This document shows positions 16,219-50,220 of a DNA stretch of 64,000 nucleotides, in pieces. The position numbers were made by a program, and so were the translations under genes. Where the stretch lies: NCBI GenBank assembly GCA_012735215.1, contig JAAYHX010000011.1, positions 1-64,000 on the forward strand, read 5' to 3'. Below the pieces are notes generated by a model. The model was not told the DNA's origin and did no database searches. It worked only from the letters and a program-made list of their open reading frames with translations. Numbering within the stretch: the first letter of the stretch is position 1; every line of letters begins with the position of its first letter. Source of the DNA: Tissierellia bacterium (lineage in GTDB: Bacteria > Bacillota > Clostridia > Tissierellales > Tepidimicrobiaceae).

Positions 16219-16243
16219 AAAAAAACAGTCCCGGAAAGGACTG
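16219..16243 (-). terminator. Riboswitch-associated terminator upstream of tupA
   Basis: CAGTCC and GGACTG stem with a 6-nt loop followed by seven T on the minus strand, about 70 nt before the tupA start. It directly follows the Moco-type aptamer and is its likely expression platform. Confidence 0.8.
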
Positions 16244-16261
16244 CTTTTGACTTTATTACAT

Positions 16262-16372
16262 AATGCAGGAGTAGCCTTTTCCTTTCCAATCGCGGGAGGT
16301 ATTAGGATTTCTCCTAACACCCATCGGCGTAACTTCATAGCATGTAGCCTTAGAAGGTTACGCTCGGAAAAT
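16262..16372 (-). ncRNA. Moco/Tuco RNA motif (molybdenum/tungsten cofactor riboswitch)
   Basis: On the minus strand the conserved-looking blocks CCGAGCG, GATGGGTGTTAGG, CCTCCCGCGATTGG, AAAGGAAAAGGC and ACTCCTGCA appear in the order I recall for the Moco RNA motif. A 7-bp stem GCGTAAC/GTTACGC (extended by TTC/GAA) and a second stem TTAGGA/TCCTAA are clear. The element sits between fdhD and tupA, on the strand of tupA, and ends at an intrinsic terminator. Its 5' arm lies inside the last codons of fdhD. Family assignment is from memory of the consensus; an Rfam covariance search would confirm it. Confidence 0.75.
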
Positions 16373-17132
16373 TGGCATAGATATTCATCTTTTCTCCCCT
16401 TACAAATCCAATAAGAGTAATATTGAGTTTCTGGGCTATTTCTATTGCAAGACTTGTAGGTGCAGATCTGGATATAATTACGGGGATTTGTCTTTTAGCT
16501 GTTTTTATCAACATTTCAGAAGATATTCTTCCGCTGGTAAGTATGATCTTATCTTTAGTGTCTATTCCTTCTAAGAGGGCATGTCCTAATACCTTGTCCA
16601 AGGCATTGTGTCTTCCAATATCCTCTTTAAATATAATTATACCATCTAAGTTGCACATGGCGCAACTGTGAACGCCACCAGTTTCTCTAAATAGTTTTGA
16701 ATTTTCGTTGAATTCCTTCATTAAGCCCTTTATCTTGTCAGCTGGTACATACATGGGCTTTTCAATCTTTTTGGACCTGAAAGAATCAATTACATTATAG
16801 AAGACAGTTCCCTTACCGCAGCCTGATGTTATTGTTCTCTTCCCTCTAAACTCTTCATTGAAAGGATCTATCCTGTTGATATATACATATGATATGCCCC
16901 TTTCTTCATCTATGGTAATCTGATCCACATCTGAAAGGGAAGAAATAAGGCCTTCCGAATATAAAAAACCAAGAGTCAGCTCCTTTAGAGAATCAGGACT
17001 GCAGAGCAAGGTTATTAACTCCTTATCATTAACATAGATGGTAAAGGGATATTCCCTAACAACTATATCCTCTTCTTCCCAGATCCCATCCCCTTTAACC
17101 CTCATAATATTAACTTTTTTAATATCCTTCAT
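16350..17132 (-). CDS. fdhD: Formate dehydrogenase sulfurtransferase FdhD
   Basis: 260 aa. Transfers sulphur from IscS to the metal cofactor of FdhA. Conserved stretches EYPFTIYVNDKEL, LTLGFLYSEGLI, GGVHSCAMC (CxxC), FKEDIGRHNALDKVLG, TSGRISSEM and SRSAPTSLAIEIA are present. Start ATG behind GAGGGAGATAGG. It lies in the fdhA-mog-mobA-fdhD row. Its last ~6 codons double as the first strand of the downstream riboswitch. Confidence 0.95.
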   Translation of the reverse strand: MKDIKKVNIMRVKGDGIWEEEDIVVREYPFTIYVNDKELITLLCSPDSLKELTLGFLYSEGLISSLSDVDQITIDEERGISYVYINRIDPFNEEFRGKRTITSGCGKGTVFYNVIDSFRSKKIEKPMYVPADKIKGLMKEFNENSKLFRETGGVHSCAMCNLDGIIIFKEDIGRHNALDKVLGHALLEGIDTKDKIILTSGRISSEMLIKTAKRQIPVIISRSAPTSLAIEIAQKLNITLIGFVRGEKMNIYANFPSVTF

Positions 17133-47461: not shown

Positions 47462-49303
47462 CTACACGTCAGCCAATTCTTTTTTCTTATATGACAGCAA
47501 GGATAACTCTTCTAACTTTTCATCAGTTGGGATACTTTCTTCGTCCCAGCCTCTTACTTCATAATACTCATTTAGCATTTTCTCAAGCTCTACTACCTTA
47601 CCTTTAGCTGGTCCACTGTTTACAGGTTCTTTTAGAAGTCTCTCTGGTAATGTGTCGTCCTTTCTAGTAAATCCAGCTTCTAGATTAAATAGTTTTTCAA
47701 GGTTCCAGATTCTTTCACCAACCCTTAGTACCTCTTCATCGCTAAATTCTAAGCCTGTTACGCTCCTTAGCATTTCTGCTATTTCAGGCAATCCAATAGC
47801 AAAGGTGCTGAATAGACAAATGTCAGATGAATCTACTACAGCAGTTAAATCTTGGAAGGTCTTTAGCAGTGGAGCTTTCCCTTCTGTTGTATGAGGATCA
47901 ACTTTAACTGGTATTCCCAATATCTCAGGAGATGTCAAATATCCTCTTACGTGACATCCACCTCTGTTACTGGTGGCATACTCTAATCCCATTCCCTGTA
48001 GTACTCTTCCATCATATGCTGGCATCTCTTGCTTCTTAACACTCATGGATAGTTCTGGATGTCCGTATTTTTCTGCCATTCTATAGGAACCTAGGGCCAT
48101 GATATCTCCAAAGCCTTCTCTGTTTCCTGTAAGCTCTGTCCATTCTATTATACTTTCAGCATCTCCAAATCTTAATTCCCTACCACCTAAATCTTCCTTA
48201 GTTATATATCCACTTTCATACAATTCCATCGCACAAGCAATAGTTGCTCCCATAGTAATTGGATCTATTCCTAGCAGGTTGCATACATGGTTAGCCTTAT
48301 TAATAGCATTCAAATCTTTTACACCACAACATGCACCATAAGCCCATGCCGCTTCATATTCTGGACCTGCTACAATTCCCTTATACTTGCCATCAGGAAT
48401 ATTTATAACTCTTCCACATCCAATGCTGCATGCAAAACAAGCTTTATTCCTTATTAAATACTTTTCAGCTAGATATTCTCCACTGATAAGTTCTCCATCT
48501 TCAAATCTTGAATCCTTCCAGTTCCTAGTAGGCAATCCATGTACTTCATTAAGTATGTTAACAAGTACTTCAGTACCATAGGTGGGTAAGCCTCCACCAG
48601 GACCAGTTACACCATTTTCGTTGATTTTACCTCTAGCATCCATAGCAGCAGCCTTAAACTTATCTTGATTTGCTACCTTAATGGACTTTGTTCCCTTAAC
48701 TACTACTGCTTTAAGGTTTTTAGAACCCATAACTGCACCCATTCCTGATCTACCAGCAGCCCTGTCCTTGTCGTTCATAACAGTAGCAAATAGCACTTGC
48801 TTTTCTCCACCTGGTCCTATACATGCAACCCTTGCATCCTTTTCATTTTCCTGTAGGAGTAAATCTGTAGTTTCAAAAACATCTTTTCCCCAAAGGTGTT
48901 CTGCACTTTTTAGCTCTATTAGATCATCACAAATGTGCAAATATACAGGCTTATCCGCCTTGCCTTCAAATATTATTCCATCATATCCTGCAAACTTAAG
49001 CTCAGGACCAAAATGTCCCCCTGAGTTAGCTGCTCCAATAGTTCCTGTTAATGGTGCCTTTGCAACAACGTTAAATCTTCCTGCACAAGTAGCATAGGTT
49101 CCCGTCACAGGGCCGGTCATAAATATAAGCTTGTTTTCAGGGCTTAAGGGATCAATCTTAGGATCAACTTCATCATATAATATTTTAGAACCTAATCCCC
49201 TACCACCGAGATATAGTTTTGCATCTTCCATATTTAGATCTTCAATTTTGATACTCTTTTCAGTTAAATTAACTCTTATGATCTTTCCTGTCCAGCCGTA
49301 CAT
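47462..49303 (-). CDS. aor: Aldehyde:ferredoxin oxidoreductase (tungsten)
   Basis: 613 aa. Oxidises aldehydes to acids with ferredoxin as acceptor, or the reverse. The N-terminal pterin-binding region ([59 protein letters not shown]) and the [4Fe-4S] ligands ([11 protein letters not shown] plus SSDICLFS) are complete. In amino-acid fermenters it handles aldehydes from 2-oxoacids. Tungsten would come through TupABC. It overlaps the ferredoxin gene by one base (TAATG). Confidence 0.95.
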
Positions 49304-49785
49304 TATTTAGCCACCTCCTTATACGCTTGACTATAATGGGCAGCAATCTTTTCTCTCTTTTCCTTTAATTCACTATCCAATTCCTTAAATTCCAATGCTC
49401 CACTAGGACATAACTTAACGCATTCTGGATCCCCACCACATAGGTCACATTTTATGATTCTACTAAGTCTTTCACTATAGGTTATTGAATCATAGGGACA
49501 AGCATCTACACATAATTTACAATCAATGCATAGATCTCTATTATATTCAACTACTTCTGTTTCTTTATTTTTTACAAGGGCATCTACTGGGCATGCTGCA
49601 GCACATTCAGGTTCATCACACTGGATGCAAGCTAAGGGTACTTGTAATCCTTCTTCATCAAAAGGCATTACCCTTATAGCAGCATCTTTTGGATTGAAGT
49701 CATCATACTTGCTAAATGTACATACAAGTTCACAAATCCTGCAGCCTATACACTTCTCTGGTGTAAAAACAATTCCTTTAGCCAT
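49303..49785 (-). CDS. Four-cluster ferredoxin subunit of aldehyde oxidoreductase
   Basis: 160 aa. Four [4Fe-4S] binding sets: [35 protein letters not shown] and [14 protein letters not shown] with their partner CP motifs. HycB-like proteins of this kind carry electrons for Aor. The start is unusual: a strong AAAGGGGG site lies 39 nt upstream, and the ATG is preceded only by AGAGAAG. A hairpin between the two could bring the strong site close to the ATG. Confidence 0.93.
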
Positions 49786-49814: not shown

Positions 49815-49848
49815 AAACTCACCCCCTTTAATTTTTTTGAAATAAAAT

Positions 49849-49890
49849 GGGATTAATACCTGTCATCACAATATGACAGATATTAATCCC
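49849..49890 (-). terminator. Terminator/antiterminator hairpin of the aor leader
   Basis: GGGATTAATA...CTGTCAT and ATGACAG...TATTAATCCC form a stem of about 17 bp with a 6-nt loop, followed on minus by ATTTTATTTC, about 60 nt before the ferredoxin start. Its first five bases GGGAT can pair instead with ATCCC at 49979-49983. Confidence 0.7.
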
Positions 49891-49985
49891 TTTGCACAAT
49901 GGCAGGCATAAAAATTGCTTTTTATACCCTATCGTTCATATCGGCCTACACCTTGAGCTTGTAGGTCGATTATGAATCGGGATAA
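49887..49985 (-). ncRNA. Candidate structured leader RNA (possible riboswitch) of the aor operon
   Basis: On the minus strand a long hairpin (CG.TTCAT.ATCG.CCTACA, 9-nt loop, TGTAGG.CGAT.ATGAA.CG) is followed by a second (GGTATAAAAA/TTTTTATGCC type) and by TGCCATTGTGCAAA. ATCCC at the 5' end can pair with GGGAT, closing a multi-branch junction, and GGGAT is also the first arm of the terminator. No class I know matches. The ~470-bp gap 49786-50254 otherwise shows only AT-rich promoter sequence and the terminator of the SLH gene's neighbour. Confidence 0.55.
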
Positions 49986-50220
49986 TTATTTCCTTGTTAA
50001 TAGTTATGATAAAAAATATATTATTATGTGTAATATATTATTCCTTGGAATATTGAATGGTTAATAGGTGCTCTAACTTGAGATTAGAATTTTGATTAGT
50101 CTAATAAAGTTTAATGAATAAAGTATAAGTTTAGTAGTTAGAATATTCTTGCTTTGTAATTATTGTAACAGAAAATGTATATCTTATCAAGATTGGATGG
50201 AAAAATTGATAAAATTATAA

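Follow-up and report, generated by a model that had tools for sequence, protein, structure and literature searches.

The question raised by this locus is what kind of RNA precedes its ferredoxin and aldehyde ferredoxin oxidoreductase (AOR) genes, and in which direction that RNA would control them. The window, meaning the whole 64,000-nucleotide stretch of DNA that was analyzed, was originally predicted to carry an orphan structured leader at this site, in which an aptamer and a terminator compete. The aor leader is very probably a P3-less riboswitch of the Tuco type that belongs to a distinct AOR-linked subtype and turns transcription ON when its ligand is bound, a reading in which we infer the ligand and the direction in this organism.

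The aor leader and its family

The elements of the leader and the genes that follow it are listed below in the direction of transcription.

50006-50034, minus strand: weak candidate promoter (ATTACA-17-TATCAT) from a consensus scan, just 5′ of the aptamer
49871-49994, minus strand: RF01055 Moco/Tuco riboswitch, P3-less, AOR-linked subtype (cmscan 47.4 bits, gathering score 36, E 3.2e-8)
49986-49881, minus strand: aptamer core
49979-49983, minus strand: P1 5′ strand, ATCCC, pairing with 49890-49886; P1 covaries in homologues
49935-49976, minus strand: P2 (TTCATA/TATGAA, CG/CG, CCTACA/TGTAGG); its outer pairs covary
49904-49929, minus strand: P4 (GGGTATAAAAA/TTTTTATGCCT), closed by a GCAA GNRA tetraloop at 49918-49915
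49894-49903, minus strand: P5 (GC/GC), 2 bp; its first pair is G-C, while that of the canonical RNA is C-G
49886-49890, minus strand: P1 3′ strand, GGGAT, doubling as the terminator 5′ arm
49849-49890, minus strand: intrinsic terminator hairpin, 18 pairs, −25.6 kcal/mol
49848-49839, minus strand: U-rich terminator tail, ATTTTATTTC
49818-49829, minus strand: likely Shine-Dalgarno of the ferredoxin gene (AAAGGGGGTGAG), judged from its sequence
49303-49785, minus strand: AOR-associated 4Fe-4S ferredoxin-like protein, 160 aa
47462-49303, minus strand: aldehyde ferredoxin oxidoreductase, 613 aa (AFOR_N, AFOR_C)

The ATCCC/GGGAT pairing, the two hairpins and the terminator of the original prediction are all present, on the minus strand, with 49983-49979 and 49890-49886 forming P1. 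One of these hairpins, CCTACA/TGTAGG, is the inner part of P2 (49965-49960/49950-49945), a simple extended hairpin in which no tetraloop receptor was seen. The other, GGTATAAAAA/TTTTTATGCC, lies inside P4 (49929-49919/49914-49904). The terminator had been put at about 17 bp; the hairpin stands, and the exact count is 18 pairs. It is the sole terminator-like site in the 1 kb scanned. As had been proposed, GGGAT (49890-49886) is common to P1 and the terminator, which makes the two mutually exclusive. The folding z-score of the leader is −7.9 and none of 200 dinucleotide shuffles is equally stable, so that its structure is far beyond chance. A promoter downstream of the terminator would have spoken against leader control, and a scan of the minus strand from the terminator to the ferredoxin start revealed no sigma-70-like promoter. 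An upstream alignment of relatives shows no evident counterpart of the ATTACA-17-TATCAT element or any other common promoter element.

Judged by its sequence, the leader is clearly a member of the Moco/Tuco family RF01055 and not a new class by default. It scores above the gathering threshold, and P1, P2, P4 and P5 are arranged around the conserved junction. The description of the leader as an orphan that matches no known class was thus mistaken, and the RF01055 match rules out a new orphan class; other Rfam families near the site gave only matches far under their thresholds. The family was understandably missed at first, because the AOR-linked subtype is only marginally covered by the Rfam model, with many members scoring below threshold. 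The P3 region is gapped in the RF01055 alignment, as in the P3-less form, which Regulski et al. 2008 (PMC2408646) assigned to the tungsten cofactor. For the P4 loop, a receptor is expected only with GAAA, and the four GCAA RNAs of that paper are all without one (PMC2408646). The gene context is also that of the Tuco type, with AOR downstream of this copy and TupA downstream of a second copy in the window. Where the family has the highly conserved core letters CCGAGC, CCUCCC and UGGAAAGG, the aor leader has CCGAUU, CCUGCC and UGCAAAGG; the junction GA and AAAGG are retained, and the differing letters still pair through compensatory change.

Compared with the P3-less Tuco RNA of Regulski et al. 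2008 (PMC2408646), the aor leader has the same P1-P2-P4-P5 layout, GNRA loop on P4, AAAGG junction, absence of P3, tungsten-enzyme gene context and terminator platform. It differs in the G-C first pair of P5, the U-A closing pairs of P2, the receptor-less GCAA loop and a P1 held in common with the terminator (an ON layout). The main text of that paper, as far as accessible, describes neither an AOR-linked subtype nor an ON layout.

An AOR-linked subtype and its possible ligands

Within the order, RF01055 matches separate by score into two groups, and the lower-scoring one has the unusual core of the window's leader. A subtype model, R1, was built from 12 such low-group leaders and searched against the order, the class, the phylum and 80 AOR loci; 60 further loci, mostly lower-ranking matches, were added as a less biased sample, and genes were labeled by BLAST to the window proteins. 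The aor leader, itself among the R1 members, scores 93.6 bits, and close relatives of its AOR are from Tissierellia.

The search yielded 234 distinct RNAs, 100 with a G-C first P5 pair and 107 with C-G. AOR lies downstream of 90 of the G-C RNAs and of 3 of the C-G RNAs, 52 of which precede tungstate-transport (Tup) genes. When RNAs found only through AOR are left out, the counts are 67/75 and 3/107, in a sample that still leans toward AOR because R1 derives from AOR leaders. The G-C subtype also differs in its P4 loop, which is not GAAA in 89/100 RNAs compared to 9/107 of the C-G type; its P2 closing pairs are often U-A, and a receptor was not seen. Of 92 RNAs, 53 begin P5 with G-C, 28 with C-G and 11 with U-A, and the position is paired in every one. 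The covariation in homologous AOR leaders that had been called for beforehand is strong: in 42 RNAs taken at AOR loci, 94.7% of cells form pairs, and the score of 0.671 compares with 0.240 in shuffles and no more than 0.173 when partners are slid. Rfam misses many of these leaders, since 6 of 19 R1 matches of G-C type (18 loci) are under the RF01055 threshold, as are all four aor1/aor2 RNAs of a presumed Sporomusa ovata genome.

The G-C RNAs without AOR precede, by sequence reading of the gene names, formate dehydrogenase-type NuoE/NuoF operons or a ferredoxin and formate dehydrogenase-like pair, all of which are probably other tungsten enzymes. Two further exceptions (L241, L242), named in the same way, precede a PAS/sigma-54 regulator and an iron alcohol dehydrogenase, with no AOR in the fetched stretch.

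The original prediction named tungsten, pterin, aldehyde or reduced ferredoxin metabolism as the source of a ligand; the tie to tungsten and pterin is supported, and no support was found for aldehyde or reduced ferredoxin. We take the ligand to be a tungsten-pterin cofactor. Two readings divide the question of its exact form within the preferred explanation, and neither competes with that explanation nor adds to it. The somewhat favored one is that the AOR-linked RNAs bind the same ligand as canonical Tuco RNAs and form an old lineage that was passed down together with AOR-type operons or adapted to ON switching. The common fold, the common P3-less type, the overlapping contexts and weak phylogenetic independence argue for it: the RNA tree has 51 usable columns and only 3 supported independent contrasts, too little signal to part selection from one ancient split, so that shared ancestry of the subtype can explain its association with AOR. 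It accounts less well for the constancy of G-C, which is found in 40 of 42 AOR leaders, with carriers that span diverse Bacillota and include one Treponema MAG.

A more doubtful reading is that the subtype is a separate sensor of another cofactor form, for example the tungsten bis-pyranopterin without nucleotide, as in AOR. Consistent with this are the coordinated core changes (P5 from C-G to G-C, P2 often U-A, a P4 loop that is usually not GAAA, no receptor seen), the strong gene association and the coexistence of both subtypes in at least 14 genera. However, formate dehydrogenase-type enzymes use the nucleotide form of the cofactor, and some G-C RNAs precede operons of this type. In addition, the subtype is about as tightly associated with the ON layout as with the gene, and the changes may tune switching; the few tree contrasts also weigh against it. 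It is unlikely, though conceivable, that AOR-linked RNAs are their own riboswitch class on the Moco scaffold, sensing a different tungsten-pterin form and wired ON for tungsten enzymes.

The founding paper (Regulski 2008, PMC2408646) did not demonstrate that the cofactor binds an RNA of the Moco family directly, and no later demonstration was found in the accessible literature. A 2024 paper (PMC10845959) still terms the exact ligand of Moco/Tuco RNA unidentified.

Several further features were observed around these loci. In six of them (L163, L162, L166, L217, L048, L167), the aor riboswitch lies directly 3′ of an apparent MoaD-like gene end (..FPPVGGG stop) and may be intra-operonic. A hairpin, UCUGG...CCAGA (window 49815-49792, minus strand), lies between the Shine-Dalgarno and the ferredoxin start; a similar hairpin with changed inner pairs is found at the same place in 7 other leaders (e.g. 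L161, L166, L168) and is missing from 5 (e.g. L163, L217), and the pattern occurs once in its own genome. Two loci (L193, L236) have head-to-head pairs of ferredoxin-AOR operons, each operon with its own G-C-type RNA. Canonical P3-less RNAs also precede secreted, partly SLH-domain proteins (L282, L060, L122 and similar), which by appearance have a molybdopterin-oxidoreductase-like fold; a possible ECF transporter S component is found at L282 and L122, and such loci perhaps serve cofactor or pterin uptake.

Terminator layouts and the direction of switching

The genome of the window contains only two RF01055 copies, the aor leader and a leader before tupABC.

16263-16381, minus strand: second RF01055 copy, canonical P3-less subtype, before tupABC (73.9 bits)
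16223-16246, minus strand: tup-leader terminator, in which TCCTTTCC (16240-16233) complements the aptamer GGAAAGGA (16287-16280), an OFF layout

Both RNAs belong to the same Rfam family and genome and are P3-less, but the tup leader has C-G in P5, a GAAA loop and a separate terminator with an anti-aptamer sequence. By their sequences, the two leaders would bring both layouts together in one window, ON for aor and OFF for tup.

This difference recurs among relatives. Because weakly extended hairpins can produce spurious overlaps in canonical RNAs, and did so in a few cases in an initial platform scan, a stricter rule was applied. Under this rule, a terminator shares a P1 strand in 83/100 G-C-type RNAs compared to 2/107 of the C-G type, both of which look like weak hairpin extensions; in 17/100 G-C RNAs the strict scan found no clear P1-sharing terminator. 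In transporter-linked RNAs the terminator is separate and often contains a sequence complementary to the aptamer's GGAAAGG. In 43% of 47 canonical RNAs of this kind, at least 7 bases in the 5′ part of the terminator are complementary to the aptamer 3′ side, which is the layout expected for an OFF switch. No such complement of at least 7 bases was found in any of 81 P1-sharing AOR terminators.

P1 and the terminator both need GGGAT, so that termination should be blocked by a ligand that keeps P1 closed. This lends support to the riboswitch logic of the original prediction. The aptamer (P1, P2, P4, P5) would fold while RNA polymerase transcribes the leader. Without ligand, the growing terminator hairpin would invade P1 through GGGAT, and transcription would end before the ferredoxin-AOR genes. 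With the tungsten cofactor bound, a stabilized P1 would resist invasion and the terminator would stay open, so that synthesis of AOR would follow the supply of its cofactor. When growing transcripts were folded at equilibrium, the mean P1 probability was 0.7-0.93 until the last terminator bases, and 0.00 thereafter. The imperfect U-tract of the aor terminator counts against this explanation.

It is improbable that the leader binds a protein or attenuates transcription constitutively without sensing a metabolite. Regulski 2008 (PMC2408646) left room for a protein factor in the Moco family, but the large, conserved and covarying multi-helix core and the selective coupling of core, platform and gene speak against both.

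Tungstate response in Sporomusa ovata and related reports

The ON layout can be compared with expression data from S. ovata, in which RT-qPCR at tenfold tungstate showed a 30.4-fold rise of aor1-2 and a 14.3-fold rise of aor4 (PMC4973070). In the same work, mop2 rose 3.8-fold and fdhA2 3.3-fold, and aor3, mop1 and fdhA1 were unchanged (PMC4973070). We take one of the genomes searched to be S. ovata from its sequence. It encodes a 579-aa AOR, and 5 kb from it lies the gene of a 484-aa AOR whose sequence equals residues 96-579 of the larger protein. This pair matches aor1/aor2 of PMC4973070 exactly, and other gene positions roughly fit the locus tags of that paper.

In this genome, aor1 and aor2 each have two tandem G-C-type RNAs, every one with a P1-sharing terminator. 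On another contig, both AOR genes carry one intact G-C-type leader with such a terminator, and one of these genes must be aor4. What precedes aor3 is only a remnant (L353:10293-10362), from which P1 and the terminator are gone. The ON model fits all four measured AOR-family genes in direction and pattern. No RNA match was found for mop1 and none was detected for fdhA2, and mop2 has a canonical RNA some genes upstream. The rise of fdhA2 and mop2, neither directly preceded by a G-C-type RNA, indicates that part of the tungstate effect takes another route. The aor1/aor2 leaders (L352) resemble the aor leader of the window in their G-C-type core, P1-overlapping terminator and downstream AOR, and differ in their tandem arrangement, the lack of a separate ferredoxin gene before aor and their scores below the Rfam threshold. 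At L355:15447-16037 (minus strand) of the same presumed S. ovata genome, three RNAs of mixed type (G-C P5, GAAA loop, separate terminators) stand in series.

An OFF switch, in which ligand favors termination, has its precedent in the documented repression by the E. coli Moco RNA (PMC2408646), but it is the least probable reading, given the mutual exclusion of P1 and terminator, the absence of any separate antiterminator in the AOR leaders searched, and the rise of S. ovata aor transcripts with tungstate (PMC4973070).

No description of an AOR-linked subtype with opposite wiring was found in the accessible literature. Tungsten-dependent riboswitches in Eubacterium limosum have been reported (PNAS 2025, as cited in PMC13390469); this work likewise ties tungsten to riboswitch control, may partly cover the AOR-leader finding and may lessen its novelty. 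A Moco RNA of E. limosum precedes a hydrogenase cluster (PMC5651825), which is related and uninformative on direction. Moco/Tuco RNA is a widespread riboswitch class. The AOR-linked ON subtype would explain why tungstate induces AOR expression and alcohol formation in acetogens. Its near one-to-one link to AOR, its ON output and the tungstate induction in a culturable acetogen make the sensed tungsten-pterin form and the responsible bases testable.

Elsewhere in the window, a c-di-GMP-II riboswitch (RF01786, 64.4 bits; 58496-58413, minus strand) lies just 5′ of genes for a histidine kinase-like protein and a response regulator; a secreted-protein cluster is encoded on that strand as well.
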